A stretch of 64,000 nt of DNA. Source: Spirochaetales bacterium (GTDB lineage Bacteria; Spirochaetota; Spirochaetia; JABEVK01). The position numbers were made by a program, and so were the translations under genes. Shown one piece after another: positions 1,915-17,433 of this stretch (positions within the stretch are counted from its first letter, which is position 1; the number at the start of each line of letters is the position of its first letter). The notes below the pieces were generated by a model. It had not been told where the DNA came from. It saw nothing but the letters and a program-made list of their open reading frames with translations, and ran no database searches. The stretch covers positions 64,491 to 128,490 of the forward strand of contig CANJXC010000006.1 in NCBI GenBank assembly GCA_947478845.1, given 5' to 3'.

Positions 1915-3381
1915 GTGGAACTAATCTCCCTAGCCCTTGTTGCTCTGTCGCTTCTCGTCCTCACCGTTCTTCTTGGTGTCGCGCTACTTCGCTCCCGCTC
2001 AAAGGTCGCATTGGTTGACCAGCAGGCCAAGGAACTAACAAGTCTACGAGACGAGCTCAAGGCGGCTCAGACAAGAGTTTCCGCCGCCGACGGCGAGAAG
2101 ATTCGTTTGCAGGAACGCCTCGACGGCGTCGAGAAAGCTGCTGCAACGGCGGCCCAACAAGCTAAGGAGTCCCTCGACGCTCTCAAAGTCCTGGCCGACG
2201 ACCTGACCCGTAGGCTTGAAGCCGAACAGACGATCAGCCGCACCTTGACAATCAAGGTTGCTACGGCCGCCGCCGAAGTCGAAGGCGCGAAGGAAGAACT
2301 TCGCCGCTACAAAGAGACGGAGGCACAGCGAAATGTCTCCCTCAAGGCGGAGATTGAAAACCTGACCCAGAAGATCTTTGACGAGAAGACCGGCAAGTTC
2401 AAGGAACTAGGAACGGCCGCTATCGCTGAGCTCGTCAAGCCGATTGGAGAGAACCTCGCTAAGCTCCAAAAGGCCCTCGTGGACTCAGAAACGGCTGATC
2501 AAGTGCGGGAACAGCGATTGGTCAGTTCACTTGAGAACCTCAACAAGCTGAATACTCAGTTGGGAGTGCAAGCCGAGGGTCTTGCAAAGGCGCTTCAGGG
2601 CAACAACAAGACCATGGGCGACTTCGGAGAGGTCCTGCTTGAACGGCTCCTGGAGTTTTCCGGCCTCACGAAGGACGTCCACTACATTGAGCAGGGCGAG
2701 GACCTCAAGCTCCGCTCGGAAGACGGGGGGCATCTCAAGCCTGACTTACTCATCCTTCTCCCGGAGAATCGCTGCTTGGTTGTCGACTCCAAGATGAGTC
2801 TCAAGTCATGGGTTGCCGCGCAGACCGACGAGGAGGTTGCTCGGCTCGCAGCCCTCACCGACTTTCGTTCCTCAATTCGAAAGCACGTCACGAACCTCGC
2901 GTCGAAGCCCTACACCGAGGCGGTACAAAAATCGGGTCGAATTACTGTGGACTTCAAGCTCCTTTTCGTCCCGATCGAGGCCGCCTTCCACGCTTCCCTT
3001 GAGAACGACCGGGCCCTCTACCAGGATGCGTTCAACCAACGGGTCATCTTGGTCAGTCCGACAACCTTGCTCGCGGTCCTTTCCACCGTTGAGCTGACCT
3101 GGAAGCAGTTTGACTTGAGTCGCAACGCCCGCCTAATCAGTGACCGGGCGTCGTTGCTCCTCGACAAACTGATGGACTTTCTTGGGTCGATGGACAAGAT
3201 AGGAGATCAGCTGGAACGGACTCAGAAGGTCTACGAGGAGGCCAAGGGCCGCCTGATTTCCGGCAAAGGCAGTCTCGTTATCCAAGCGACCAAACTGCAA
3301 AAGCTGGGCGTTAAGTCCGACAAGGCGCTGCCAGCCGATTTTGCTGCCCTGGTCAGCGATAGCGACGAGGCCGACTCTTGA
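1915..3381 (+). CDS. rmuC: RmuC family protein
   Basis: RmuC proteins are membrane-anchored and carry a PD-(D/E)xK-like nuclease core; in E. coli RmuC limits recombination at inverted repeats. Residues 3-24 form a membrane anchor, residues about 25-165 are a long Glu/Ala/Lys coiled coil, and the RmuC domain follows. The domain shows MGDFGEVLLERLLEFSGL and a nuclease-like KPDLLILLP...CLVVDSK stretch. At 488 residues it is of normal family length. The GTG start follows the upstream stop with no gap, and GAGGGGAGG just before it is a good ribosome binding site. The 3' end overlaps the helicase gene by four bases. Its place between a methyltransferase and a helicase suggests a role in the module's DNA processing rather than housekeeping, which is inference. 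Confidence 0.9.
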   Translation: MELISLALVALSLLVLTVLLGVALLRSRSKVALVDQQAKELTSLRDELKAAQTRVSAADGEKIRLQERLDGVEKAAATAAQQAKESLDALKVLADDLTRRLEAEQTISRTLTIKVATAAAEVEGAKEELRRYKETEAQRNVSLKAEIENLTQKIFDEKTGKFKELGTAAIAELVKPIGENLAKLQKALVDSETADQVREQRLVSSLENLNKLNTQLGVQAEGLAKALQGNNKTMGDFGEVLLERLLEFSGLTKDVHYIEQGEDLKLRSEDGGHLKPDLLILLPENRCLVVDSKMSLKSWVAAQTDEEVARLAALTDFRSSIRKHVTNLASKPYTEAVQKSGRITVDFKLLFVPIEAAFHASLENDRALYQDAFNQRVILVSPTTLLAVLSTVELTWKQFDLSRNARLISDRASLLLDKLMDFLGSMDKIGDQLERTQKVYEEAKGRLISGKGSLVIQATKLQKLGVKSDKALPADFAALVSDSDEADS

Positions 3382-5456
3382 ACATTATCCTCGCCAATAC
3401 CTTTGCCAGCAGTCTGACCAAGTTAACGGCCGACGAGCAAAAAGCCGCCAAGACCACGGCCCTGGACCTCCAGCTCAACCCCGAGTTGCCCGGCCTTCGC
3501 CTTCATCGGGTTGAGAAGGTCGCCGATGCGGGGTTCTGGTCGGCTCGGGTGACCGATGGCTTGCGCCTCATTCTTCACCGCACGAACGACAGCATGATGC
3601 TTTGCCATGTTGGTACGCACGACAGCGCCTACCGCTGGGCAGAACGTCGCCGCATCGAGGCGCATCCGGTGACCGGGGTTGTCCAAATCGTCGAGATCCG
3701 CGAGCGAGTTCAGGAAATCGTCGTTCCGAGGTATGTTGACGTCGAAACGGCAAAGCCCGTGAAACGCCCCTTCGCCAAGTACTCGCCAGCGGAGGTCTTG
3801 GCTTGGGGCGTACCCCAAGACTGGGTCGAGGAGGTGCGCCAAGTTGCCGAAGACGACATTCTCGACCTAGGGAATCACCTTCCGCACGAAGCGGTGGAAC
3901 TCCTTGTGGATATTGCGTTCGGAAAGCAGCCTGCTCCCGCTCACCCCCCCGTGAAGCCTGACGATCCCTTCGAGCATCCGGACGCTCAGCGCAGGTTCCG
4001 GCTGATTGCTACGTCCGAGGCCCTTCAGGAGGCTCTCGAGGCCACTTGGGATCAGTGGGTGATCTACCTGCATCCCGACCAGCGTTCGCTCGTTACCAAG
4101 GACTTCAACGGTCCAGCCCGCGTCTCCGGTTCCGCAGGAACTGGAAAGACCATCGTGGCCCTGCACCGGGCGGTTCACTTAGCTCGCTCAAACCCAGGAG
4201 CCCGCGTCCTACTTACGACGTTCTCTGATGCATTAGCGGGGTCCCTGAAAGACAAGCTTCAGCGGTTGGCAGCCGGAGAACCAAAGCTACTTGAACGCCT
4301 CGAGGTGCTCTCGGTCAAAGCCGTAGGTCGGCGCCTTTGGCGCGCCAACGGTGAACAGGATCACCTGGTGACCCAAGAGGAACTGGAACAAGAACTCGGG
4401 AAAGCTGCCAAGGTGGTTCCCGGCCACAAGTTCACGTTGCCTTTCCTTCGAAGTGAGTGGGAGGAAGTGGTCGAAGGCTGGAATCTAGCCACTTGGGAAG
4501 GCTATCGCGAAGTCCCCCGGCTGGGCCGAAAGGTCCGGCTACCGGAGGCTCTTCGCAAGACCCTCTGGTCGATCTTCAGCCTCGTTCTTGAGTCCCTCGA
4601 GTCCCGAGGTCTGACGACCGAAGGCGGGTTGTTCAACAAACTGGAGCCGAAACTGTTGGGTCGCACCGAACCGCCCTTCGACTTCGTGGTCGTTGACGAG
4701 GCCCAGGACCTGAGCCGTCCCCAGCTGAGGTTCTTCGCCGCCTTCGGGGCCGAAGCCACGAACCGTCTGTTCTTTGCCGGCGACCTCGCGCAGCGGATTT
4801 TCCGCTCGCCGTTCTCCTGGAAGGCTGCGGGCATTGACCTTCGTGGCCGTTCACGAACGCTTCGGGTAAACTACAGGACCTCCCAGCAGATCCGAAAGCA
4901 CGCGGACCGGCTGTTAGCCACCGACGTTTCAGATGTCGACGGTCTTGCCGAGAAGCGCAATACGACCATTTCGGTCTTTAACGGGCCAGAGCCCAAAGTG
5001 CTCACGCTATCGTCGCCCGAGGAGGAGACGCTCGCTGTTGTCGGTTGGCTCAAGGAACTCCTCGCTCAAGGCATCAAGCCCTACGAAATTGCTCTTGTTG
5101 TGCGCTCCCCAGAGCAGTTCCCTCGAGCCCATGCCGCCTCCCTACAGGCACAACTACCGTTTGTCGTCTTGGACGAAACCTCCAAACCTAAGGTCGGCTC
5201 AATCTGCTTGGCGACAATGCACTTCGTGAAGGGGCTCGAGTTCAGGGCCGTGGCAATCCTCGCTTGCGATTTTGAGGTGCTTCCTTCGCCCGAGCGCCTT
5301 GAGGCCGTCGCCGACGAAAGTGAACTGGAAGAGGTCTTCAATACCGAACGAAATCTACTTTACGTTGCTTGCACTCGAGCACGGGACTACTTGCTTTTGA
5401 CCGCCGCCGGCGAGCCGTCGGAGTTCTTGGCGGACCTCCAGCCGGCGCCCCAATGA
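3378..5456 (+). CDS. RelE/ParE-like domain fused to UvrD/Rep-type superfamily 1 helicase
   Basis: The first ~100 residues read like a RelE/ParE-fold toxin: GFWSARVTDGLRLILHR, then MLCHVGTHDSAYRWAERR. After a linker, a superfamily 1 helicase follows: Walker A GSAGTGKT at 251-258, motif II VDEAQD at about 439-444, VNYRTSQQI (motif IV region), MHFVKGLEF (motif V) and NLLYVACTRAR (motif VI, about 657-667). All core helicase motifs are intact, so ATP-driven DNA translocation or unwinding is likely. The TTG start overlaps the rmuC stop by four bases and the stop overlaps the next ATG, showing translational coupling. No antitoxin is encoded beside it. Whether the RelE-like part still cuts RNA or merely binds nucleic acid or ribosomes cannot be told from sequence. 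The fusion itself is clear. Confidence 0.85.
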   Translation: MNIILANTFASSLTKLTADEQKAAKTTALDLQLNPELPGLRLHRVEKVADAGFWSARVTDGLRLILHRTNDSMMLCHVGTHDSAYRWAERRRIEAHPVTGVVQIVEIRERVQEIVVPRYVDVETAKPVKRPFAKYSPAEVLAWGVPQDWVEEVRQVAEDDILDLGNHLPHEAVELLVDIAFGKQPAPAHPPVKPDDPFEHPDAQRRFRLIATSEALQEALEATWDQWVIYLHPDQRSLVTKDFNGPARVSGSAGTGKTIVALHRAVHLARSNPGARVLLTTFSDALAGSLKDKLQRLAAGEPKLLERLEVLSVKAVGRRLWRANGEQDHLVTQEELEQELGKAAKVVPGHKFTLPFLRSEWEEVVEGWNLATWEGYREVPRLGRKVRLPEALRKTLWSIFSLVLESLESRGLTTEGGLFNKLEPKLLGRTEPPFDFVVVDEAQDLSRPQLRFFAAFGAEATNRLFFAGDLAQRIFRSPFSWKAAGIDLRGRSRTLRVNYRTSQQIRKHADRLLATDVSDVDGLAEKRNTTISVFNGPEPKVLTLSSPEEETLAVVGWLKELLAQGIKPYEIALVVRSPEQFPRAHAASLQAQLPFVVLDETSKPKVGSICLATMHFVKGLEFRAVAILACDFEVLPSPERLEAVADESELEEVFNTERNLLYVACTRARDYLLLTAAGEPSEFLADLQPAPQ

Positions 5457-6139
5457 GCTTTTTGCCGACCCCAACGAAGCTGGTTCGCGGGCACTTTGTC
5501 AGCGAAGGAAAGACCCGGTTTAAGGCGACCGTGCGCGTCAACGGCAGGGAGCGGCCTTGCTATGTTCCCTTTTCGTCGAAGCTCAGCAGTCATGTTGAAC
5601 TAGGCGCGAATCCCGTTCGGCTTTCGCGGCGTCTGACGAGTGAGGGTGAAGTACTGGATCTTGCTTGGCTGAAACTTGGAAGCAAATGGAGCTTCGTCGA
5701 CCTCAGGCAGGTTAACGCTTTGGTTGCAGATTGTTTGTTCGGGCACCTTAGTGTTGAGGCGCGGCCCGGAGCGGAAGTAAAGGTCGGGGACGTCTATCGT
5801 GCTGACTTCGCCGACCCAGCGACCCGAGAACTCTGGGAAGTTAAGGCGCTTTTGAGCGCTACTTCGAGGGTCTCTTTTCCGGCGATGGCTCTAGAGCGAG
5901 CCGGGCGTCAGCTGGCAACTCTGGTGGAGCTCCAAGCTCAAGGGTGGAAAGTAAATCTCATCCTGGTCTGTCTCAACCCTGGTCTTCGCAGCTATCAGCT
6001 GAATCCCAAATACCAGGAGTTCTCCGCGCACTTTGAGCAGCTACTACGCGGCGGAACTACAGTGACGGGCCTGGCTGTCCATCGCCGTATAGGGTCTGAC
6101 TTGCCGAGGCTCAAGTGGGCGAAATTGGACAGAGTATGA
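5453..6139 (+). CDS. SfsA-like nuclease / DNA-binding protein
   Basis: The 228-residue protein matches the pattern of SfsA, a family with an N-terminal OB-like part and a PD-(D/E)xK-like nuclease core. Visible matches are FKATVRVNGRERPCYVP near the start, WSFVDLRQVNALVADCL in the middle, the acidic pair YRADFAD and ELWEVKAL (an ExK core), FPAMALERAGRQLATLVEL, and a final LNPKYQEFSAHFEQLL. Length is close to the ~235 residues of E. coli SfsA. The ATG at 5453 overlaps the helicase stop (ATGA), so I prefer it to the longer reading. The stop is 58 bases before the next gene. SfsA is usually a lone chromosomal gene. Here it sits in a helicase/RmuC operon, so a nuclease job in that system is a reasonable inference. 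The assignment is by pattern memory, not by alignment. Confidence 0.7.
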   Translation: MSFLPTPTKLVRGHFVSEGKTRFKATVRVNGRERPCYVPFSSKLSSHVELGANPVRLSRRLTSEGEVLDLAWLKLGSKWSFVDLRQVNALVADCLFGHLSVEARPGAEVKVGDVYRADFADPATRELWEVKALLSATSRVSFPAMALERAGRQLATLVELQAQGWKVNLILVCLNPGLRSYQLNPKYQEFSAHFEQLLRGGTTVTGLAVHRRIGSDLPRLKWAKLDRV

Positions 6140-6197
6140 AGGGCGAATATCCGTCGACTACGAGAGGTCAAAGGCAACTCAGGTTCGGGGGTATTGC

Positions 6198-8123
6198 GTG
6201 ATCAGCAAAGTAACCATTGAGAACTTCAAGTCAATCAAGGACCGGGCCGAGCTGAATCTAGGGCGTCTCACAGTCTTTGCTGGGACGAACAGCAGCGGGA
6301 AGAGTTCGGTTTTCCAGGCTATTCTGCTGTTGGCTCAGTCGGTCCAGAAGGGGACCAACGAGACTCCGGTCGTCTTGAACGGTCACCGGGTTCGGCTGGG
6401 TGAGTTTGACGACATTCGGTCAAGGTACAGCCAAGAAATAACCGATCCGGAAAAGCTTAAGGAAAGGCGAGCGGTCTTTGAAGAATACGAAATTGACGAC
6501 GAAGGCCATACCCCCATGGGAACGGTCGAGGCGGATTTGCTTACACTTGGTCTCCAGTTCCGAGTTAATGGATTGCAGTATGATCCCAAGGGTGAGCTAG
6601 CTGATCCGCTTGACTCGGAACTGTTGATCGATTTTCAAGTTCAATTTCAAGGAGACCGAACCTATACCACGGCATTGAACAGACGGGTTGCGGGTGAAGT
6701 CTACGTAGTTGATACTCGACTTAGCGTACAAGGTCTTGGTTCGACATCGTTTACCGAGGTTGGCCGCTCACCCTTGGACAGTGGCCAGGCTGAACTCACA
6801 ACTTCCTCGGATGCCACAGGCTATATTAGTGCCTCAGCGTTGGATGAACTACTCTCAGCCGAAGGCGAACGTGACTCAAAGTTCACCGTCGAGTCTGTGG
6901 GCTTCGATGGACTGATGGTCCGAAACATCCAGCTATTCTTCCACTTTGAGCCAGAGGCCCTAAGAATTCATTCTCGGCTATCCAGGAAAGGAGGAATCCC
7001 CCTGCGTATCCGCGGGCCGAGAACAAACCTCGACGATGTGAATAACCTAAGGATTGATATTCAGCTACTCGCAGAAGTTTGGAAAGATCCAAGTACCGCC
7101 CAAGAACTGCTCGTCGAAGCTGGTTTGGCGGACCGGGACTTCGTATCCTTTGCCGAGCTTAACCAGATTCTCCGTGAACTTCCTGACAGCCTTTGGCCAC
7201 AGGTGTCGGATTCGCTACGTCCGCCCGAGATTGTTCAAGAGCTACTGGCACAGAATCTTGAAAGGTCGAACCAAGCGCAATCGAGGACGAGACCTACTCA
7301 GGATTTCGGGCTACCAGCGTCCCTGAAACTTGCGAATGATTTGATTCTTAGGGAAACCAGCGCGCAAATAAAGCATCTCGGGCCACTTCGTGACAGTCCA
7401 AAGGCCGTCTATCAGCGGGACTTTCGCGAAAGTGACTCCGAGCTCGGGCAAAGCGGCGAGAACCTTGCAGCAGTCTTTGAGCACTACCATGACATGAACA
7501 TAGCCTACATTTCCCCAAGCATGATGGGACGAGCTTTTGACTGGGCAATGTCGAAGAGCGGAACTCTCAATGAAGCCTTGGTGGAGTGGCTCGCCTATTT
7601 GGGCATCGGGGACCATTTGGATGTGAAAAACTTGGGACGGAGCGGGTACGAGTTGCGAATGGGCGTCCATGACCTCACCCAGGTGGGTACCGGTGTTAGT
7701 CAGGTACTCCCGATCCTCGTTCTCGGCTTACTGGCCGAGCCCGACTCGACGCTGCTCATTGAACAGCCCGAACTTCACCTCCACCCGAAGGTACAGTCGC
7801 TACTCGGAGACTTCTTCCTATCGCTAGCCTTCCTCGGGAAGCAGTGCCTGATTGAGACTCACAGCGAGCACATTTTGGATCGTCTTCGCTACCGTGTTGC
7901 CTTGGAGCATGGAACCGAGAATCCCGTCCTTGGGCACCTCAAGTTTTACTTCTCCAACAAGAAGGACGGACTTTCGACCTTTCGGGAAGTCGAAGTGAAT
8001 GAGTACGGGGCGATCGAAGACTGGCCCGAGGGTTTCTTTGATGACTCCCTCAAGGTTTCGGAGCTCATCATGCGAGCGGCGATCCGAAAGCGAAAGCGAG
8101 CTCAGGAAGGTCCGGAAGCGTGA
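6198..8123 (+). CDS. AAA family ATPase with C-terminal DUF3696
   Basis: An SMC/RecF/OLD-like ABC-fold ATPase of 641 residues. It opens with ISKVTIENFKSIKD, the usual start of this group, then Walker A GTNSSGKSS at 29-37. Late in the chain come Walker B STLLIEQPELHLHP (about 516-529) and the conserved THSEHIL (about 553-559). The end, YGAIEDWPEGFFDDS, is the hallmark of DUF3696. No TOPRIM nuclease domain is visible, so any nuclease must come from another subunit. Such ATPases are common sensors or motors in anti-phage systems. The GTG start is preceded by a GGGGG stretch, and the stop overlaps the next start by four bases. ATPase family is firm; its role in this operon is inferred. Confidence 0.85.
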   Translation: MISKVTIENFKSIKDRAELNLGRLTVFAGTNSSGKSSVFQAILLLAQSVQKGTNETPVVLNGHRVRLGEFDDIRSRYSQEITDPEKLKERRAVFEEYEIDDEGHTPMGTVEADLLTLGLQFRVNGLQYDPKGELADPLDSELLIDFQVQFQGDRTYTTALNRRVAGEVYVVDTRLSVQGLGSTSFTEVGRSPLDSGQAELTTSSDATGYISASALDELLSAEGERDSKFTVESVGFDGLMVRNIQLFFHFEPEALRIHSRLSRKGGIPLRIRGPRTNLDDVNNLRIDIQLLAEVWKDPSTAQELLVEAGLADRDFVSFAELNQILRELPDSLWPQVSDSLRPPEIVQELLAQNLERSNQAQSRTRPTQDFGLPASLKLANDLILRETSAQIKHLGPLRDSPKAVYQRDFRESDSELGQSGENLAAVFEHYHDMNIAYISPSMMGRAFDWAMSKSGTLNEALVEWLAYLGIGDHLDVKNLGRSGYELRMGVHDLTQVGTGVSQVLPILVLGLLAEPDSTLLIEQPELHLHPKVQSLLGDFFLSLAFLGKQCLIETHSEHILDRLRYRVALEHGTENPVLGHLKFYFSNKKDGLSTFREVEVNEYGAIEDWPEGFFDDSLKVSELIMRAAIRKRKRAQEGPEA

Positions 8124-9166
8124 CGATCGAGGTCCTGATCGACAGTCTCTATCTCAAGGTCACTAGGGAAGAGCAAGCGACCGATCAATTGAAAAATTTC
8201 GTTCAGAAGGTTCTGGATCTCTTGGAATTGACCGAGAATCCCGACTACTGTGTCTACCGGAGCAATTCGATGGAAACGCTTCTGTGGGAACTCGGTGTGT
8301 TTCCTGACCTCGAGAGCCTTCGGCAACTTGTCGACAGGTCCGGCTGTCGCGAGTACTCCCTTGCAGAGCTCTCTCGGCTCGTAGAACTTACCTTGCGCAA
8401 GACCAAGTCGCTGGATTCTGCCTTTGGCATGGGGTATGTGCTGGCCGAAAATTTCAAATGGCGTGAAGGTGGACCTGAGAGCCTCATGGAGCACCATGTC
8501 CGCGAGGACCTGGAACAGTTTCTCGATCAGGTTGCGGTCCTCGACCTCGCCAACGCCACCTCAGGGTTTGAACACATTCTCGTATGTGATGGTGTGACGC
8601 GTGGTAGGAACGGTTTTGTGACCAGTTTGCTGGAGATCGATCCGCCGGCCCGGCCCCCGTGGGACAAACTCAAGCTTCCGCGAACGACAAGCAAAACTTC
8701 AATCCTAGGTTTTCGCTCGGTGGAGGAACTTTACTCGTCGTTCGACCCTGCAGTGCTCTTTGCTTCCGCGACGACTGCGGAACAGTTCGAGCGGGCAATC
8801 GGCATTGCATTGTCCCGCGCCTCAGTTCAGGATGGGCCCTACGAAACGAAAGATTCTGCCGCGTCACCAAGGCTCAGCACGGAGTTTGTGCCTTCGGTTT
8901 TGCGATGGCGTAGCGGGGCCCACAAAGACCTCAGCAATGCACTGCTCGACGTTATCCTTGACGCAGTCCTTGGGCGAAAGTTGCCCCAGGTCCACGCACT
9001 CCGAACAAGCAAGGGAGGCGATTCAGCCGGCAGAACTCGTGGTAGCGACAAAGCAATGCGACGCGACGTTGATGCCGGGATGCGGCTCCACTATTGGGAA
9101 CTTCCCGGCCGTCGCGTTGAGTTGGCGAAGATTGTCAGCCACGATGACTTCACAATTCCAAGTTAG
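8120..9166 (+). CDS. Unrecognised protein coupled to the DUF3696 ATPase
   Basis: I do not recognise this 348-residue protein. Its GTG start overlaps the ATPase stop by four bases, which suggests the two work as a pair. The N-terminal 100 residues are rich in Leu, Glu and Arg and look helical (EVLIDSLYLKV, then VQKVLDLLELT). The middle contains FEHILVCDGVTRGRNGF. The C-terminal part is polar and ends in SHDDFTIPS. No signal peptide or membrane segment is seen. The AAA/DUF3696 proteins of defence islands often have such a second subunit carrying a nuclease or effector fold, but I see no certain catalytic motif. Six bases separate it from the next gene. Coding is secure from length, coupling and codon usage; function is unknown. 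Confidence 0.75.
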   Translation: MTIEVLIDSLYLKVTREEQATDQLKNFVQKVLDLLELTENPDYCVYRSNSMETLLWELGVFPDLESLRQLVDRSGCREYSLAELSRLVELTLRKTKSLDSAFGMGYVLAENFKWREGGPESLMEHHVREDLEQFLDQVAVLDLANATSGFEHILVCDGVTRGRNGFVTSLLEIDPPARPPWDKLKLPRTTSKTSILGFRSVEELYSSFDPAVLFASATTAEQFERAIGIALSRASVQDGPYETKDSAASPRLSTEFVPSVLRWRSGAHKDLSNALLDVILDAVLGRKLPQVHALRTSKGGDSAGRTRGSDKAMRRDVDAGMRLHYWELPGRRVELAKIVSHDDFTIPS

Positions 9167-9172
9167 GTCTGA

Positions 9173-10393
9173 ATGGCAAACATGAAGCGCACGACTGCCA
9201 AGGACTGGAACCTCCACAACTTGCCCGCTATCTGCAGTGATTTGACGTTCGACCGAAGCTTCGGGACCGCGGACCGAAAGAAGCTCGTTTTCGGACACTT
9301 GCCCGAGGTGATGGAGGACAAGTGGTTCATCTACTACGACCAAGGTGTGCTCAACTTTCACCGCAGTTGGACAGGGTTTTGTGTCTACAGGGCCCTCTGT
9401 GATGATGACGGTTCCAGCCTATTATTCAAGCGTGTACTGATCAATCGAGATCCAACCCAGTACACTGAGACCGATGACACTTATGACCTCAGGGTTCTGA
9501 ACTTTCTGGTCGATGCGGTTCTCTTGGAAAGGCCGGTCGCGTTTCCGTACAAGTCGGAGGGCGAGGATGGGGCGTTGCAGGCGTGGTCACTGGTCGGCAA
9601 AGCTATGTTCTCGGCACCGCCCAGGTCGACCGAACTTGTACGAATTGTTCCGCTGGCCCGATACCTAGGAACACCCACTTCCCGACATCGCCCCTATGCT
9701 TTCTACGCAGACCTGAACTCGCTGCGAGGCAAATCCGTGGCTGAAGCCTACGCGACTGTTCGGGGGCTGAAGTGGCCAGAGTTGACTCCACTCCGAAAGT
9801 GGCACACGCCCTTCCGGAATCTTGGTCCAGCGTGGAATGATCCCGATGATGCCCCACTGACACCCCCCGCCGTTCTTGGTTCTTCGGATGAACCTGCCGC
9901 GCTATCCGTGGAGTATCGTGAAGCCATGGAGTACGTTGTACTTCGGGTCGAGGAAGTTGACGCCCTTACATCATTCGACGCGTTTCCAGCCACCTGGACG
10001 GCGTTGTCTTACCTTCTGTCCGACAAGGAAAGAATGTCCGTAGGGGGTCTGAATAGTCTTGCCTTTCACCTTCACGAGCAGTTTGCCCGTTTGCATCAGA
10101 CCTCGGGCCTTGGACTTTTAGCTGAGCGGGAGACCAAGAGTAGTCTCGGTCTCGACGGACTTCAGTCAACCAGAACTCAGGGCGAGGAACTCGACGCATA
10201 CCACTATCTTTCGGTCGACTCCCTGTCAACGAATGATTTCGTTGACCTGTTTGGCCTGTCCTGCCGCTGTTGGTACGGCTGCGGAGTTCTGGGAGAGCTG
10301 GAGGACCCTATTTGTCGGTTCTACCTTTTGAGGAACGAGATCAGTGGCAGGATTAGGAGCGAAGTGCTTGCTGGTTCGGACTTCCTCACCTGA
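9173..10393 (+). CDS. Unrecognised protein with a Trp/Tyr-rich N-terminal segment
   Basis: The last gene of the first operon, 406 residues, starts six bases after its neighbour. Residues about 50-75 read DKWFIYYDQGVLNFHRSWTG, followed by FCVY. From memory this resembles a small domain found beside ADP-ribosylglycohydrolase or macrodomain proteins, but the match is uncertain and no catalytic residues of those enzymes are visible. The remainder shows no motif I know. A late cluster CRCWYGCG holds several Cys residues and could bind metal or form part of a core. No membrane segment or signal peptide is seen. An inverted repeat (CTTGCTGG at 10367-10374, CCAGCAAG at 10404-10411) spans its stop codon, without a T-run that would make it a clear terminator. 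Real gene; function unknown. Confidence 0.7.
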   Translation: MANMKRTTAKDWNLHNLPAICSDLTFDRSFGTADRKKLVFGHLPEVMEDKWFIYYDQGVLNFHRSWTGFCVYRALCDDDGSSLLFKRVLINRDPTQYTETDDTYDLRVLNFLVDAVLLERPVAFPYKSEGEDGALQAWSLVGKAMFSAPPRSTELVRIVPLARYLGTPTSRHRPYAFYADLNSLRGKSVAEAYATVRGLKWPELTPLRKWHTPFRNLGPAWNDPDDAPLTPPAVLGSSDEPAALSVEYREAMEYVVLRVEEVDALTSFDAFPATWTALSYLLSDKERMSVGGLNSLAFHLHEQFARLHQTSGLGLLAERETKSSLGLDGLQSTRTQGEELDAYHYLSVDSLSTNDFVDLFGLSCRCWYGCGVLGELEDPICRFYLLRNEISGRIRSEVLAGSDFLT

Positions 10394-10506: not shown

Positions 10507-10536
10507 CTTGTAGGAATCACTCCTGCAAGCTAGAAT
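10507..10536 (+). promoter_or_regulatory. Predicted promoter and overlapping operator for the retron RNA
   Basis: A -10-like TAGAAT lies at 10531-10536, with TTGTAG at 10508-10513 as a weak -35 at a 17-base spacing. This places the transcription start near 10543, just before the a1 repeat of the predicted retron RNA at 10545. An interrupted inverted repeat fills the space between: CTTGTAGGA at 10507-10515 and TCCTGCAAG at 10521-10529, with eight of nine bases complementary around ATCAC. A repressor bound there would cover the -35 and spacer. No regulator gene is adjacent. The stretch from 10394 to 10506 holds no gene that I can see. Confidence 0.55.
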
Positions 10537-10544
10537 GTATTTCC

Positions 10545-10734
10545 GTCGGCTCCACCTAGATTATTCCCTGATGTCTCGTCAGGGGTGATCCATGCGGACG
10601 AGATGATCGAAGTCGCCGTACGAGGGTTGCGCACCATCCCCGGACGTGACGGTCGAGCCCATCCCGCCCGTTGACGGCGAGCAACCCTCGTAGGGCGCTC
10701 CGATAGGCCAAAGGTTTCAGTGGGTGGAGCCGAC
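10545..10734 (+). ncRNA. Retron msr-msd non-coding RNA (template-primer RNA)
   Basis: The region ahead of the reverse transcriptase has the layout of a retron RNA. A 12-base sequence GTCGGCTCCACC at 10545-10556 (a1) is perfectly complementary to GGTGGAGCCGAC at 10723-10734 (a2), and T10557/A10558 can extend the pairing. The G at 10559, directly after a1, is in the place of the branching guanosine. A small msr stem follows (CCCTGA 10566-10571 with TCAGGG 10579-10584). The msd part has a 12-base perfect stem, TACGAGGGTTGC at 10619-10630 with GCAACCCTCGTA at 10681-10692. Retron RTs use such an RNA as template and primer to make msDNA. Exact ends, the branch G and the msr/msd border are predictions. 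Confidence 0.85.
10619..10692 (+). repeat. Long msd stem-loop (reverse-transcribed hairpin)
   Basis: The arms at 10619-10630 and 10681-10692 are perfect reverse complements. The 50-base loop between them can fold further: CGT and CGG near 10644-10651 can pair with the CCG and ACG near 10667-10675. TCGCCG at 10613-10618 is also complementary to CGGCGA at 10675-10680. That pairing would cross the main stem, so it offers an alternative fold or a pseudoknot. In msDNA this stem would appear as the DNA hairpin. Confidence 0.75.
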
Positions 10735-10752
10735 TTTTTTGAGGAGTTTGGT

Positions 10753-13671
10753 GTGGAAGTCAGCCAGCAAAGCCTCTCCCGGGTACTTCAAGACTTCATG
10801 GATGCCGTCCGTGCCGGAATCCAGCAGTTGGACTGGGCCCAAGGTCTGGGGCACGAGGCCCTGCTTTTGGTGCTGGCACAGGCGTCCTCGGCGGCCCGGG
10901 AGCGTTTGGCGGCGTTGTTGGCGGCGGCAGGTGAGCGCTCCCCAGCGGCTTTCGGCCAGGCGTTGCTGGGGTCTTCCAGGCAGCAACTCGCCCAGTGGCA
11001 CTACCTCTTCCGTGTCTTCGCTCAGAAACCAGAGGCGGCGCTAACCGCGGTGACCAACCCGCTTCTCCACTACCTGGACGAACGGATTCCGTCGCGGAAG
11101 TCCCTAGCCGGCCTGTTGGACCCCAGGGTGGGCTCGGCGCGACGCTGGGCCAAGCAGCTGCTTGGTGCCGAGTGGTATGCGAGTCCCGAGGTCTACCTCA
11201 ATATTGAACCCATCTCAGCGCAAGCTGCGCTGGAGCTTTTCCGCCTTTGCGTGTTTGAGAGCAAGAGCACGTCGTTCGAGCGTGCTCGGGAGGCGGTGCC
11301 GGCCGTGGCGGAGCGATGCCGCCGGTTAGGGATCCCCGGACTGACGGCCCGTCAGTTCGGGGCCCTGCCCCAGAGCTACCGGAACGCGGTTGGCGAGGCC
11401 ACGGAGCGCAAGGTTCTACTCAGTCCCCGCTTCGCCGCCAGGGTTGAACGGTCGCCATTAAGCTATCCTTTCACCGGGGAATACCGGGGGTTGGTCGAGG
11501 CCTACGAGGCCTTCCAGAGGGATTGGAAGGACACGGAGGCGGCCAGACAGACGCTGCAGCGGATCCTCGAGTGGGCTGTTCCGGGCAAGGAACCCTCGGA
11601 CTTCGTCGACAACCTCCGGGCCTTGCTGAACCAACACTTCGGCGGGTTTGCCGCCGTTACCATTTTTGCGCAGGCGCTCGAACCTGTGGACTACGGTCGC
11701 CTCCTGTCCCTTCTGGACGATAACGAGCTGGCAACCTTGCTTGCGGGGCTAACCTGGGAACGCGACCGGGCTGTCCTGGAGCAATCCCGTCGCGTCGATG
11801 GGCTCTACTTCCGGCTGCTCGGCCTGGCTCCCGACAGCCTGCGCGAGGCCGTCGTACGGACTCAGCTGGGCCTTGCCGTCAAGGATGACAAGCTCGTGGA
11901 ACTGGTGATGGCGCAGCCGCCAAAACGCTGGGAGCCGTTTCTCCCGGCCGATTTGCTGCCCTACCTGCCACGGCAGAGTTACAGCGGCAAGATCCGCTGG
12001 ACGACCTCGTTGGAAGAAGCGATCCTGAAATACAAGGGCCCCTTGGCGGATCTGCTGCCCGACACCGCCGAAGTGTTCACTGACTTGTCCAGCGCCGTGG
12101 ACAATTGGCTGGGTAGCAACGAGTCACCCCGCCGCCTGTCGCGTAACTGGTTGTTCCAGAATCGGCCCGGCTACCTGACTTCGCTCAACGACAAGGCCAT
12201 CCTAGCCCTGCTTCGGAAGCAGTTGGATGCTCAATCCACGTGGAACCAGACGGAATGGTTCTGGAACCTGCTTTCCGCCGATCGGGCTCCGGACAGCAGC
12301 CGACTCCTGGCGGCCTGCACCCAGCTTCCACGCGCAGTCAGACGGCTGGCCGCCGAACCAAACCGCGCCCAGTTGCTACTGGCCGGCCACCTAGGAAGGA
12401 ATCCGTCCTGCCGTCAGGACGTTCTGTCTCTGCTGGAGGTGTGGCTTCGGTGGCAGCCGACGGTGGCTCTGGATCCCGCGCTGCTCAGGGTGCTCGGAGT
12501 CGTGCCTTACGCCCCCGGCAACCTCCGCCTTGGCACCACCCTGAGCCTGATTGGCCCGCTGAAGGAACTGGCCGCCGGGCAGACTCCGCTGGCCCAACTT
12601 CCCCGGGCCGAGAGTGTGTTTCATTCGCTTCTCCGGCTCACAGGCTGGGCCGACGGGGAGAAGCCGACGACGATTGAGCCAGCCTCAACCGCTGTGGCCC
12701 TTTTGCCGGTGCTGGCAAACCTGACCGGCTTGGGCCTTGCCCGACAGACCTCGCTGGAAGTGGCCCTGCACGTCGGCCTTGCGTGGTGGCCGATCCTTGA
12801 GGGACACCTGCTGTCGACACTGGAAGCCACGCAGCCCGGAACCGCGCTGACAGCGTCCTACCGCATCTACACCATCGCCAAGAAGAACGGCAAACGGCGC
12901 ATCATCCAGGCGCCAAACCGTCCTCTCAAGACCCTCCAGCGGGCGTTGCTCGACCGGGGCTTCGCCCAGCTGTTGCCGCACGATTGCGCCACCGGGTTCC
13001 GCCCCGGCTACTCCACCCTCGACAACGCAAGGCCTCACGAGCGCAAGCGAATCGTGGCCAAGGTCGATGTAGAGTCCTTCTTCCCGTCCACCCGGTATGC
13101 CTCGGTGTTGCGGGTGTGCGGCCAACTGTGGGGTGCCACTCTCTCCCCGCGGGCGGTCCACCTGGTGGCCGAGCTCTGCACGGTCGACGGGGGTCTGCCC
13201 ACGGGCGCTCCCACCAGCCCGGCCATCGCCAATCTGGTGCTCAAACCCGCCGATGCTGCCCTGGCCACCGTGTGCCAACGCAAGGGGGTCACCTACACCC
13301 GCTTTGCCGACGATCTGACGTTCTCCTCCGATTCAGAGGCGGCAGTCCGCGTGTTGCCCTTTGTTTCGGAAGTCCTGCGGACGCACGGGTACCGGTTGGC
13401 GCACCAGAAGACAGGGGTCTTCCGGCGCGGACGCCGCCAGACCGTCACGGGGTTGGTCGTGAACGAGAAGGCGACCCTGAGCCGGCCCGAGCGGCGGTTG
13501 CTGAGGGCCATGGTGGAACACCGCGTTCATGGAAAGGCCGTGACCCGGGATGGACTGGAGCAGAGCGACGCGGTCTTGAGGGGACACCTGTCGTATTTGG
13601 CCCTCTCCCGGCCCGACGAGGCCCGCGGGCTGTTGGCGCAGCTGGGCCCCCATGGCACCGCCAATGCCTGA
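10753..13671 (+). CDS. Retron reverse transcriptase with ~690-residue N-terminal extension
   Basis: The C-terminal part is a retron-type reverse transcriptase. It has KKNGKRRIIQAPN (RT1/2), the retron NAxxH motif as NARPH at about 758-762, VDVESFFPS (RT3), PTGAPTSPAIANL (RT4), the polymerase site YTRFADDLTFS with FADD at about 851-854, and the retron VTG motif in TVTGLVVN at about 898-900. Retron RTs normally span only ~300-400 residues. Here about 690 residues of Leu/Ala/Arg-rich, probably helical-repeat sequence come first, which I cannot assign. A GTG at 10720 would lie inside the a2 repeat. I prefer GTG 10753 because GAGGAG sits six bases before it, giving 972 residues. The stop overlaps the methyltransferase start. 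No group II maturase or endonuclease domain is present. Confidence 0.9.
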   Translation: MEVSQQSLSRVLQDFMDAVRAGIQQLDWAQGLGHEALLLVLAQASSAARERLAALLAAAGERSPAAFGQALLGSSRQQLAQWHYLFRVFAQKPEAALTAVTNPLLHYLDERIPSRKSLAGLLDPRVGSARRWAKQLLGAEWYASPEVYLNIEPISAQAALELFRLCVFESKSTSFERAREAVPAVAERCRRLGIPGLTARQFGALPQSYRNAVGEATERKVLLSPRFAARVERSPLSYPFTGEYRGLVEAYEAFQRDWKDTEAARQTLQRILEWAVPGKEPSDFVDNLRALLNQHFGGFAAVTIFAQALEPVDYGRLLSLLDDNELATLLAGLTWERDRAVLEQSRRVDGLYFRLLGLAPDSLREAVVRTQLGLAVKDDKLVELVMAQPPKRWEPFLPADLLPYLPRQSYSGKIRWTTSLEEAILKYKGPLADLLPDTAEVFTDLSSAVDNWLGSNESPRRLSRNWLFQNRPGYLTSLNDKAILALLRKQLDAQSTWNQTEWFWNLLSADRAPDSSRLLAACTQLPRAVRRLAAEPNRAQLLLAGHLGRNPSCRQDVLSLLEVWLRWQPTVALDPALLRVLGVVPYAPGNLRLGTTLSLIGPLKELAAGQTPLAQLPRAESVFHSLLRLTGWADGEKPTTIEPASTAVALLPVLANLTGLGLARQTSLEVALHVGLAWWPILEGHLLSTLEATQPGTALTASYRIYTIAKKNGKRRIIQAPNRPLKTLQRALLDRGFAQLLPHDCATGFRPGYSTLDNARPHERKRIVAKVDVESFFPSTRYASVLRVCGQLWGATLSPRAVHLVAELCTVDGGLPTGAPTSPAIANLVLKPADAALATVCQRKGVTYTRFADDLTFSSDSEAAVRVLPFVSEVLRTHGYRLAHQKTGVFRRGRRQTVTGLVVNEKATLSRPERRLLRAMVEHRVHGKAVTRDGLEQSDAVLRGHLSYLALSRPDEARGLLAQLGPHGTANA

Positions 13672-14422
13672 GACCCGCCTCCACTGGGGGACCGGCGCCG
13701 ACCTGAGCACTCTGGGCGACCACGAGGCCGACTTGGTGTTCACCAGCCCCCCGTATTACCCTGCCGACCTGGCCGACGACCTGCTCCAACCCCGGCGGCT
13801 GCAGGCCGACTTCGCGCGGGTGCAAGCCCGTGCCCTCGCGTACGCTCACACCTTCTCGGGCGTCTACCGTGAGGTGGCGAGGGTGCTCAAAGCTCAGCGG
13901 GCCCTCATCCTGCAGATCCGCGACCTGCGCTACGGCGGGTTTCTCATCCCCTTGGCCGAAACCCACCGTCAACTGTTGGCCGCCCAGGGCCTGCGGCTGG
14001 TCACTCGGCTCGGCTGGTGTCAGCCTTACGGCAACTTCCAGCGGCGGCCCACCTTTCTGCGGGCACCTCGGGTGGGCGGTTTCGTCGCCGACGACCCTGA
14101 GGAGTTCCTGGTGTTCGCGGGCGAAAAAGGCCTTCCTGCCCGGGACCTGCCCGTCGATCTGGAACTGCCCGGTCCCGAGCTCGTGCGGCCGCTGTGGACG
14201 TTCTCGTCGCCGCACCGCGCCGAGGACCACCCATGGGCCATGCCACGCGAGGCCGCCCGGCGTCTGGTGGCGTTGTTCAGTGCCCCCGGCGACCTGGTGG
14301 TCGACCCCATGATGGGCTACGGGACGGTGCTCGAAGAGGCGCAAAAACTGGGGCGCGCCGTCGCGGGGTGGGAGCTCGACGAGGCTAGCTTCCGGGCCGC
14401 AACAGGGAGGCTTGTCCGGTGA
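13664..14422 (+). CDS. Small beta-class DNA amino-methyltransferase in the retron operon
   Basis: Motif IV appears early as TSPPYY (about residues 26-31) and motif I late as LVVDPMMGYGTV (about 212-223), followed by AVAGWELDE. This is the order and wording of compact N4-cytosine/N6-adenine methyltransferases; an SPPY core is most common in N4-cytosine enzymes. The 252-residue length fits a stand-alone enzyme with a short target-recognition region. ATG 13664 overlaps the RT stop by eight bases; ATG 13652 is in frame and also possible. The stop overlaps the next GTG by four bases. No restriction endonuclease lies beside it. It could mark host DNA or msDNA so that the system spares it, which is inference. 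Confidence 0.85.
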   Translation: MPETRLHWGTGADLSTLGDHEADLVFTSPPYYPADLADDLLQPRRLQADFARVQARALAYAHTFSGVYREVARVLKAQRALILQIRDLRYGGFLIPLAETHRQLLAAQGLRLVTRLGWCQPYGNFQRRPTFLRAPRVGGFVADDPEEFLVFAGEKGLPARDLPVDLELPGPELVRPLWTFSSPHRAEDHPWAMPREAARRLVALFSAPGDLVVDPMMGYGTVLEEAQKLGRAVAGWELDEASFRAATGRLVR

Positions 14423-15303
14423 GGTTCCGCGCCGAACTCCAGTCTTATCTGGTGCCGACGCTGATTGAGGCCTCGGTGGACCCAGACCACCCGGCCCAAG
14501 CTCAGGCCCGAAAGTGGGTGGAACGCTGGGCCGGTTCCAAGCTTCCAGCGAAGAGCGCGCTGGTCGCCCTGAGGCAGCGACTCCAGCAGGAGGCGGGAAC
14601 TCTGGTGGAACCGTTTTCCCTGACACCGGCGCAGATCGAGGTTGCCTTGGTGCTGGCCCGGGCCTTCTTCCGGCACAGCGGTCCCGGCGAACGCTTCCGC
14701 GTCGTGTCGAACTCGTCCGCCTCGCTCAGTGGCGGGCTGGAGTTCAGTGCTGACGGTGGCTTCCAATACCGCGAGCGGTTGGTCTACGGGCTTCAGACCA
14801 ACAAGGGCGAGTCCCCATACTTCTACGCACCCGCCTACCGCCCCGCCGCCTTGGGCGCCTGTGACCTGACCCGCCCGACCACGAACGCTTGGCTGTCGTT
14901 TTCGGACCGGGGCATGGAGCTCCGGATTGCGGGAGCAGGCCGCCTGTTGACGCGTTCATCCCAGTCTGTCATTCGTCTAGGGCCGGACCGCGACGTCAGA
15001 AAGTACGGCCTGGAACTGCACACCCAGGAGCGTAACCTTGTGCTGACGGCGACGACGGCTGAGGCTCTGATCCGGCTCGAGGCTGCTTGCGCCGAGGGCT
15101 TGCTGGTGTCCCTGCCCGACAACACGTCTGCCGTCGTCCTTCGGCCCTTGGAGAGTGACGAGCCCGCGGTGCTCGACTCGCTGATTTTCCCTTCTCCAGT
15201 ACCAGACAGGTGGCTCGAGTTTCCGTGGGCCCGTTGCCGCGTTCCCGAACTCGACGAGTCCTGGCTCCCACATGAGCCCCGCCTGTTCCAAGCCCTCACC
15301 TAA
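14419..15303 (+). CDS. Unrecognised 294-residue protein of the retron operon
   Basis: I do not recognise this protein. Residues 1-90 are rich in Ala, Leu and Arg and probably helical. Residues about 95-230 look strand-rich (RFRVVSNSSASLSGGLEF, YGLQTNKGESPYFYAPAY), and the tail is acidic and Trp/Pro-containing. There is no signal peptide, membrane segment or clear catalytic motif. The GTG start overlaps the methyltransferase stop (GTGA), so it is translated in step with it. It ends ten bases before the MoxR start. In MoxR/VWA operons a third variable protein often acts as adaptor or target, and this gene occupies that place, but the role is not shown by sequence. Confidence 0.75.
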   Translation: MRFRAELQSYLVPTLIEASVDPDHPAQAQARKWVERWAGSKLPAKSALVALRQRLQQEAGTLVEPFSLTPAQIEVALVLARAFFRHSGPGERFRVVSNSSASLSGGLEFSADGGFQYRERLVYGLQTNKGESPYFYAPAYRPAALGACDLTRPTTNAWLSFSDRGMELRIAGAGRLLTRSSQSVIRLGPDRDVRKYGLELHTQERNLVLTATTAEALIRLEAACAEGLLVSLPDNTSAVVLRPLESDEPAVLDSLIFPSPVPDRWLEFPWARCRVPELDESWLPHEPRLFQALT

Positions 15304-15313
15304 GGAGTTCCCT

Positions 15314-16294
15314 TTGAAACCAACCCGCATCCGACACGTGTTGACCGAACTGCTCACCGATCGTTGGCCGGTGTTCCTGTGGGGCCCCCCGGGCGTCGGC
15401 AAGAGCTCAGTGGTCCGGTCCGTGGCTGCCGAAAAGGGTCTCGAGCTGATCGACATCCGGGCCTCGCTGCTTGACCCCACCGACCTACGTGGCCTGCCCA
15501 CGGTTGCGGGGGGCCGGGCCGTCTGGGTTCCCCCGTCCTTTCTTCCCTCGGACCCGGTTTCGTTGGGCGTGCTGTTCTTCGATGAACTGAACGCGGCACC
15601 GCCCTTGGTCCAAGCCAGCCTGTACCAGCTGACGCTGGACCGTCGGGTAGGAGAGTACCGCCTGCCGGACGGCTGGAGGATTGTCGCGGCGGGCAACCGG
15701 GCCGAGGACTCGTCCATCGTCTTCCGCATGCCCTCCGCCCTGGCCAACCGCTTCATCCACCTCGACTTCGAGGCCGACTGGGAAGACTGGCGCAAGTGGG
15801 CCCTCGAGGCTAAGCTCCACCCCCTTGTCCTCAGCTTCCTGGCGCTCCGACCCTCCCTGCTGCTGGACCTCAAAGGGGCCGTCAAGGCGTTTCCAACACC
15901 GCGCTCGTGGGAAATGCTGTCCGACGTGCTCAAGCGCTTCGGCCCCGAGGGCCTCGTCGATGTCGCCAAGGGGGTGGTCGGCGAGGGGCCCGCCCTGGAG
16001 TTCGACGGGTTCGTGAAGCGGACCCTGAGCGAGGAGAAGATCCTCCGGTTGCTCGCCAATCCCGGCGAAGCTGCCTTGCCCACCGACCTCGGCGAACTTT
16101 ACACCTTGGTCACGTACCTGTCCTCGTGGGCTCATCGGGAAGGCATGCCCAAGGCGGCCGGTACGCTTCTGGGGCGGCTGAACCCCGAACTGGCGGTCCT
16201 CCTGGCCCGCGACATGCTTCAGGCCAGTCCAGCCTTCGCCCGTCAGCCCGGGTACCGGGCCTTTGTGGCCGAGCACCGGAACCTGCTGCTGTGA
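15314..16294 (+). CDS. MoxR-type AAA+ ATPase
   Basis: A 326-residue AAA+ ATPase of the MoxR group. It has Walker A GPPGVGKSS about 24 residues from the start, DLRGLPTV, Walker B VLFFDELNAAPPLVQASLYQL (a MoxR-style extension of DE), sensor 1 IVAAGNRAED, and PSALANRFIHLDFE (arginine-finger region). MoxR ATPases work with VWA-domain partners to remodel protein complexes. The VWA partner here is the next gene, whose GTG overlaps this stop by four bases. The TTG start at 15314 is chosen because AAGGAG (15302-15307) sits six bases before it. A longer reading from 15272 would run inside the upstream gene. Cytoplasmic. Family call is firm, and action on the downstream protein is well supported by general MoxR/VWA pairing. 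Confidence 0.9.
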   Translation: MKPTRIRHVLTELLTDRWPVFLWGPPGVGKSSVVRSVAAEKGLELIDIRASLLDPTDLRGLPTVAGGRAVWVPPSFLPSDPVSLGVLFFDELNAAPPLVQASLYQLTLDRRVGEYRLPDGWRIVAAGNRAEDSSIVFRMPSALANRFIHLDFEADWEDWRKWALEAKLHPLVLSFLALRPSLLLDLKGAVKAFPTPRSWEMLSDVLKRFGPEGLVDVAKGVVGEGPALEFDGFVKRTLSEEKILRLLANPGEAALPTDLGELYTLVTYLSSWAHREGMPKAAGTLLGRLNPELAVLLARDMLQASPAFARQPGYRAFVAEHRNLLL

Positions 16295-17433
16295 GCGAGC
16301 TCGCCCCCGAGGTACAGCGGGCCCGTTTTCGCCTCATGCTGGACCACCCTTTCCTGGCCTCGGCCGTCGCAAGGTTGCCGCTTCGAGAGGCCGACTCGAC
16401 CGACGTGCCCACCATGGCCACTGATGGCTACCGCATCCTCTACTCGCTGGAGTTTGCCCGCAGCCTGACGCCTGACGAGTGCGTTGGCGTACTGGCCCAC
16501 GAAGTGCTCCACTGTGTGTTCGGGCACTTGGAACGCCGCCAGAGCCGGGACCCCGTTCTTTGGAACGTAGCCATTGACTACGCCACCAATGAGTGCCTAG
16601 TGGCCTGTGGCTTCACGCTTCCCTCAAGCCGCCTGTGGGACGCGAAGTATGCCAATTTGACGGCCGAAGAGATCTACGAGCTGTTGTACCAGACCGTACC
16701 TCCCAAACGGCTGAAGGGCTTCGATCTTCACCTCAGTCCCGACCTGGGCATCGCGCGGGCCTATCGTGACGTGTCCGACCCTAGCCCCGGCGAGTTGGGC
16801 GACCTGCGGCAGCAACTGGCCCGTGAGGTGATATCGAAACTGCCCGGGCGGTTACCTGCCCTGTGGAAGCAAGAACTCGAGCGACTTGAGTCGCGGCGTG
16901 TACCATGGCAGGAACTGCTGGCCCGCTTCTTCACGGCCACCCTACAAAGTGACTTCCGCCTGTTCCCCCCGAACAAGCGTCACCTTTGGCAGGGGCTTTA
17001 CCTTCCGTCGGTCGGCGGTCTGGGGCCCCGGCAGGTGGTCGTCGCCATCGATACCTCAGGTTCCATGCGGACCTCAGACCTGCAACTCATCCTTGCCGAA
17101 GTCGACGCCTTCCGTGCCGTCGCCGCATGCGAACTGAGGCTGATTCAGGCCGATGCGGCCATTGCCTCCGACCGCCACTTTGACCCCTGGGACCTGGCCC
17201 ATCCCGACCCGGGCCCGTCCACCGTGGTCGGCCGCGGTGGAACTAGTTTTCGGCCCGTTTTCGAGGCCATCGAGCAACAGGCTGGTCAAAGCGGCTACCT
17301 GCCAGACTGCCTGGTGTACTTCACTGACGGTTACGGTGAGTTCCCCGTCAAAGCGCCCGCTTACCCCGTGCTGTGGGTGGCCGTGGAGTCGAGCAAGGCG
17401 ACGTTCCCTTTTGGAGAGGTGTTGAGATTCTAG
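16291..17433 (+). CDS. DUF2201-type protein: HExxH metallopeptidase-like plus VWA-like domain
   Basis: The 380-residue protein joins two recognisable parts. The N-terminal part has LAHEVLHCVFGHLERR with the zinc-binding HEVLH at about 70-74 and WNVAIDYATNECL after it, as in the putative metallopeptidases of DUF2201. The C-terminal VWA-like part has the MIDAS motif VVAIDTSGSM (D254, S256, S258) and LVYFTDGYGEF. Both metal sites look intact. The GTG start overlaps the MoxR stop, so I use it rather than the longer open frame from 15907. MoxR/VWA pairs are established conflict-system components, and the protease-like part makes this the likeliest effector of the retron operon. No signal peptide. 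Proteolytic activity is inferred from the motif. Confidence 0.87.
   Translation: MSELAPEVQRARFRLMLDHPFLASAVARLPLREADSTDVPTMATDGYRILYSLEFARSLTPDECVGVLAHEVLHCVFGHLERRQSRDPVLWNVAIDYATNECLVACGFTLPSSRLWDAKYANLTAEEIYELLYQTVPPKRLKGFDLHLSPDLGIARAYRDVSDPSPGELGDLRQQLAREVISKLPGRLPALWKQELERLESRRVPWQELLARFFTATLQSDFRLFPPNKRHLWQGLYLPSVGGLGPRQVVVAIDTSGSMRTSDLQLILAEVDAFRAVAACELRLIQADAAIASDRHFDPWDLAHPDPGPSTVVGRGGTSFRPVFEAIEQQAGQSGYLPDCLVYFTDGYGEFPVKAPAYPVLWVAVESSKATFPFGEVLRF

Follow-up and report, generated by a model that had tools for sequence, protein, structure and literature searches.

The locus described here raises the question of whether the RNA predicted at positions 10545 to 10734 of the window (the whole 64,000-nucleotide stretch of Spirochaetales DNA that was analyzed) is a genuine retron noncoding RNA (ncRNA; msr-msd) and, if so, which of the genes that follow belong with it. 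Retrons are bacterial, usually antiphage, reverse-transcription systems. We examined the RNA, the genes downstream, and a second copy of the whole unit found in the same genome (Table 1).

Table 1. Coordinates of the retron features in the window and of the second ncRNA copy
Feature	Position	Strand	Details
Candidate promoter TTGTAG-N17-TAGAAT	10508-10536	+	Weak consensus; predicted transcript start at about 10543
a1 arm	10545-10556	+	GTCGGCTCCACC; perfect 12-bp inverted repeat with a2
Putative branch (priming) guanosine	10559	+	AG right after a1, kept in both copies; position inferred from known retrons
msr stem-loop CCCTGATG-TCT-CGTCAGGG	10566-10584	+	Stem 10566-10573/10577-10584; predicted fold in both copies
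msd hairpin	10614-10697	+	Perfect 12-bp stem 10619-10630/10681-10692 within a longer imperfect hairpin with 39-nt arms
a2 arm	10723-10734	+	GGTGGAGCCGAC; followed by T6 at 10735-10740
Retron RT	10753-13671	+	About 972 aa: N-terminal extension of about 700 aa plus C-terminal RT domain; start picked from GAGGAG at 10741-10746
N6/N4 DNA methyltransferase	13652-14422	+	PF01555, 2.6e-16; start overlaps RT stop
Orf3	14419-15303	+	294 aa; no family match
MoxR-type AAA+ ATPase	15314-16294	+	AAA_5/AAA_3; Walker A GPPGVGKS, Walker B VLFFDE
DUF2201 protein: putative zincin metallopeptidase plus VWA domain	16291-17433	+	HEVLHCVFGH (HExxH), DTSGS; PF13203 9e-33, PF09967 5e-20
Paralogue ncRNA	L003 6045-5853	-	193-nt element of the same layout, upstream of the paralogue RT

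Anatomy of the noncoding RNA

The 12-base a1/a2 repeats claimed in the preliminary description were recovered exactly: the two arms are 100% complementary at a spacing of 166 nt, and repeats of 12 bp or more with 60- to 250-nt spacing arose in only 3 of 2,000 dinucleotide shuffles of the intergenic region. The putative branch G, the small msr stem, and the 12-base msd stem, said to occur in the right order, were all located and have the same layout in the paralogue. The a2 arm does end just before the RT ribosome-binding site, with T6 and GAGGAG (10741 to 10746) following it, and the likely RT start is GTG at 10753. The 196-nt RNA of the window copy was predicted to fold at -100.8 kcal/mol (z = -6.2). 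For the msd region, a single hairpin was also predicted in the complementary DNA (z = -5.0). A run of 6 to 7 T follows a2 in both copies, and the a1/a2 stem could double as a partial terminator between the ncRNA and the RT mRNA.

A covariance-model search against retron RNA families, which had been suggested as a check, came back negative: Rfam gave no match to the RNA of 10545 to 10734 at the gathering level, and a relaxed search of Rfam yielded no retron family, the matches being chance ones of microRNA models to the hairpin and one to a CRISPR repeat. The promoter had been predicted to start the RNA within two bases of a1. Its position stood, both in the predicted start and in the paralogue, where an equally weak TTGCAT-17-AATAAT lies in the same register with the same spacing and with AATGTATT conserved; its strength did not, since 8 of 12 consensus matches fall under the threshold of the promoter tool. 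It is thus a weak candidate, backed mainly by its same-register counterpart in the paralogue.

A paralogue elsewhere in the genome

When the RT domain was used to search the genome from which the window comes, one further match was returned, 66% identical and on a different contig (locus L003). No third copy of the ncRNA was found in the genome with up to 3 mismatches allowed in the msr block. The ncRNA region of the paralogue contains a 14-bp inverted repeat (12 bp or more was reached in 1 of 2,000 shuffles). Between the a1/a2 arms of the window and those of the paralogue, three pairs differ (U-A to C-G, C-G to U-A, and C-G to U-A), and all three are compensated; covariation, the check set by the preliminary description, is therefore present in a1/a2, every variable pair having changed on both sides. 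Sliding the pairing by 1 to 3 columns lowered it from 100% to 30 to 53%. This covariation comes from two sequences, and the shuffle control reached the observed values in 69 of 500 cases, two rows allowing little more. Because that control is not strong with only two sequences, we place the evidential weight on the pattern: changes in the outer stem are compensated throughout, the priming region has stayed fixed, and a different template hairpin has taken the place of the other. The 54-nt block that starts at the -10 box and reaches the msr stem is 85% identical in the two copies, and the msr sequence within this block is nearly identical; its stem is invariant and so gives no covariation signal either way. 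The a2 flank is 81% identical over 32 nt. The msd of the paralogue forms a longer and even stronger hairpin, unrelated in sequence and unalignable to that of the window, in an RNA with a fold z of -10.3. We conclude that 10545 to 10734 is almost certainly a retron ncRNA (msr-msd), and we name the diverged paralogue in the same genome as the decisive evidence for this call.

The two loci are homologous from 10534 to 17430, a span that opens at the -10 box and closes where the final gene ends; the flanks show no homology and carry unrelated genes. The paralogue unit is complete, comprising ncRNA, RT, methyltransferase, Orf3, MoxR, and VWA genes (L003 and L023, G000:C1:180500-196500). It adjoins a DUF499 ATPase gene, which is typical of defense regions. 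Identity between the copies is 66% for the RT domain, 67% for MoxR, 55% for the VWA protein, 49% for the methyltransferase, 28% for Orf3, and 26% for the RT extension. The RT extension, Orf3, and msd diverge fastest, which suggests that they are recognition parts under an arms race; such a profile would be expected if variable recognition parts were mounted on an unchanging machine (conserved RT domain, MoxR, and VWA).

The reverse TRANSCRIPTASE and its extension

The C-terminal 270 residues of the reverse TRANSCRIPTASE (RT) are a retron RT domain with NARPH (NAxxH), FADD, and VTG in both copies. RVT_1 matched the protein at 2e-19, and the nearest solved proteins to the domain are retron RTs, Ec86 first (8e-37 over 230 residues). 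Retron models gave the best matches in both PADLOC and NCBIfam, with DRT models far lower. The RT_X model had the top PADLOC score, 224 bits, about 14 above the next models (Ec107-like, 211; XIII, 210; III-A, 204), and the St85 retron model of NCBIfam scored 214 bits, under its cutoff of 235. For comparison, the RT of Methylobacterium bullatum, a true member of type XIII, reached 584 bits with its own PADLOC model.

The extension of about 700 aa had no homologue in Pfam, PADLOC, or the PDB. It is apparently all-helical in a structure prediction that is poor overall (mean pLDDT of 43) and from which only this helical tendency is quoted. Elsewhere in the phylum, retron-like RTs carry only some 25 to 70 residues ahead of the RT domain; most of them are preceded by 11- to 15-bp inverted repeats, a positive control for the anatomy described above. 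Searches of 7 genomes of the family, 395 of the class, and 393 of the phylum found, as relatives of the RT, only distant retron-like RTs with short N termini. Matches in viral contigs were 27 to 33% identical, and the best plasmid match, at most 38% identical, is a type XIII retron. Scans of GTDB contigs, run both with a single RT and with an alignment of two RTs, returned no relative; they used few peptide patterns, and the absence is accordingly weak.

Genes downstream of the RT

The order RT, methyltransferase, Orf3, MoxR, DUF2201, with overlapping frames, is the same at both loci, and the five-gene unit is thus conserved. The DUF2201 protein has HEVLHxxFGH and a VWA domain at both loci, and the paralogue methyltransferase has GPPY in place of SPPY; from these motifs, peptidase and methyltransferase activities are putative. 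Orf3 matched nothing in Pfam, NCBIfam, PADLOC, or PHROGs, and searches of plasmids, viral contigs, and the 393 phylum genomes recovered it only beside the two retrons of this genome. Its predicted structure is unreliable (mean pLDDT of 39), and no homology was detected with the hypothetical proteins of about 300 aa that stand beside MoxR-VWA pairs on plasmids. We consider it very probable that the RT and the four genes following it form one system, an association seen in two paralogues of one genome.

Several neighboring observations concern the MoxR-DUF2201/VWA pair and the surroundings of the operon. In PHROGs, phrog_1314 (labeled HNH endonuclease, a label that looks wrong) matched the DUF2201/VWA protein at 3e-76, and phrog_1297 (ATPase) matched MoxR; phages seem to carry the pair too. 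On a Thermus oshimai plasmid (L086 7042-15145), such a pair occurs together with helicases of the RecQ and UvrD types and with uncharacterized proteins, possibly another defense context for it. Directly upstream of the retron in the window, a defense-like cluster at 3378 to 10393 holds a UvrD-type helicase, an SfsA-like protein, an AAA ATPase (PADLOC NsnB, 233 bits), and proteins of 348 and 406 aa without a family match.

Comparison with known retrons and MoxR-vWA systems

The RT of Ec86 (Eco1; type II-A), at about 320 aa, lacks a large extension at its N terminus, and its known partner resembles a nucleoside deoxyribosyltransferase. The window's RT shares with it the RT domain, including NAxxH, the YxDD region, and VTG, as well as the ncRNA layout a1-G-msr-msd-a2-RT, but differs in its extension of about 700 aa and in the cassette of methyltransferase, Orf3, MoxR, and DUF2201 genes. 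PADLOC types X, Ec107-like, and XIII gave the best RT scores, yet these are low and nearly tied. Type XIII offers a further likeness in that its RT is joined with long helical-repeat (HEAT/WGR) and SWIM proteins (M. bullatum, L025), whereas the HEAT-ARM/WGR and SWIM partner models went unmatched here. Membership in type XIII was rejected, given 210 bits with RT_XIII against 584 for a true member and a match to none of the partner models; nor was there detectable similarity between the RT extension and the type XIII HEAT protein. The M. bullatum retron (WGR/HEAT, SWIM, and RT; L025 3268-10296 on plasmid NZ_LR743510.1) is itself absent from the plasmid gene table. None of PADLOC's retron partner models matched the window's partner genes, and no PADLOC retron type stands out as a clear fit. 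As an ncRNA, the element is of the standard retron kind; PADLOC's retron models cover neither the RT architecture nor the gene cassette, and we propose an unclassified retron variant.

MoxR-vWA conflict systems have been described as combining a MoxR ATPase with a vWA protein whose fused peptidase is held inactive and with a sensor that activates it (PMC12839542; Kaur et al. 2020, PMC7159879). The window likewise has a MoxR ATPase (AAA_5/AAA_3) adjoining a vWA protein with a putative peptidase domain (DUF2201_N HExxH, DTSGS). The third component described for those systems, however, is a regulatory sensor that is not an RT (VMAP, iSTAND, and others), and the RTs reported in them belong to diversity-generating retroelements, not retrons (PMC7159879). 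As for a sensor of these kinds (VMAP, iSTAND), neither Orf3, whose predicted fold is unreliable, nor the RT extension matched any library. A full-text literature search found no retron with MoxR or vWA genes; an earlier description may nonetheless exist.

Alternative explanations

An ordinary retron, consisting of ncRNA and RT, might by chance lie upstream of an independent methyltransferase-Orf3-MoxR-VWA operon, in which case the four genes would not be its effector. MoxR-DUF2201 pairs without retrons or any RT are indeed widespread, both on plasmids and elsewhere in the phylum. Against such a coincidence, the identical unit with overlapping frames occurs in both copies, in unrelated surroundings and despite protein identities of 26 to 67%; the genome has just two DUF2201-VWA genes, one per retron operon; and Orf3 is found nowhere else among the plasmids, viral contigs, and 393 phylum genomes searched. 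We regard this explanation as improbable.

It is very unlikely that the RT belongs to a nonretron defense class (DRT/UG or Abi type) and that the inverted repeat serves its operon as an attenuator or terminator instead of belonging to an msr-msd. The T-run after a2 in both copies, the terminator-like a1/a2 stem, and the lack of a retron family in the Rfam results would agree with it, but the protein has retron motifs, its best matches are retron RTs, DRT models score far lower, and the branch-G context, the msr hairpin, and a separate msd hairpin in canonical order would be superfluous for a terminator. Hardly more credible is a retron that has decayed or been domesticated, having lost msDNA production and kept its RNA only as a regulator of the operon. 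The weak promoter would agree with it; yet every reading frame is open, the catalytic FADD is intact, and a1/a2 has been maintained through compensatory change, which requires continuing selection and so speaks against decay.

Proposed mechanism and implications

The best explanation overall is probably a genuine retron msr-msd, whose RT-msDNA unit, we propose, would gate a MoxR-VWA peptidase output. In retrons generally, RT, ncRNA, and RT-DNA keep a toxic effector in check, and a phage trigger releases it; phage N6-adenine methyltransferases trigger some retrons, for which methylation of the RT-DNA is the suggested cause, according to PMC12548924. By combining this general retron logic with that of MoxR-vWA conflict systems, we infer that RT-msDNA serves as the sensor. 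The RNA would be transcribed from about 10543, a1 would pair with a2, and the RT would prime at the 2'-OH of G10559 and reverse-transcribe the msd hairpin, yielding msDNA, a branched hybrid of RNA and DNA. RT, msDNA, and the helical RT extension of about 700 aa would then make up the sensor scaffold, and the methyltransferase, Orf3, the MoxR AAA+ ATPase, and the DUF2201/VWA putative metallopeptidase would make up the output, with the RT extension and Orf3 as adaptors, MoxR as the switch, and the VWA-zincin as the effector. In the resting state, the RT-msDNA complex would keep the MoxR-VWA pair inactive; a phage product that disturbs the complex or the msDNA would lead MoxR to remodel the VWA protein, whose freed peptidase would then arrest the infected cell. 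The normal methylation, or self state, of msDNA or the chromosome may be defined by the methyltransferase. Of the separate parts of this scheme, the MoxR-VWA peptidase as the gated effector is a possibility that we hold with some doubt, and action of the methyltransferase on msDNA or self DNA is a tentative suggestion, rather unlikely as it stands. Equally speculative is a new retron type in which RT-msDNA, via the giant helical extension, replaces the sensor of MoxR-vWA systems and gates a metallopeptidase, with the methyltransferase labeling either msDNA or the DNA of the host as self.

The locus presents a retron with a proposed output module, made up of a DNA methyltransferase, Orf3, a MoxR ATPase, and a VWA-zincin, that was found neither among the PADLOC retron types nor in the papers searched. 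It would unite msDNA sensing with MoxR-vWA thresholding, immune logics that have been described apart from each other. Since phage methyltransferases trigger some retrons (PMC12548924), a retron with a methyltransferase of its own makes methylation-based self/nonself reading of msDNA directly testable, and the two paralogues, with their different msd hairpins, constitute a natural swap experiment.
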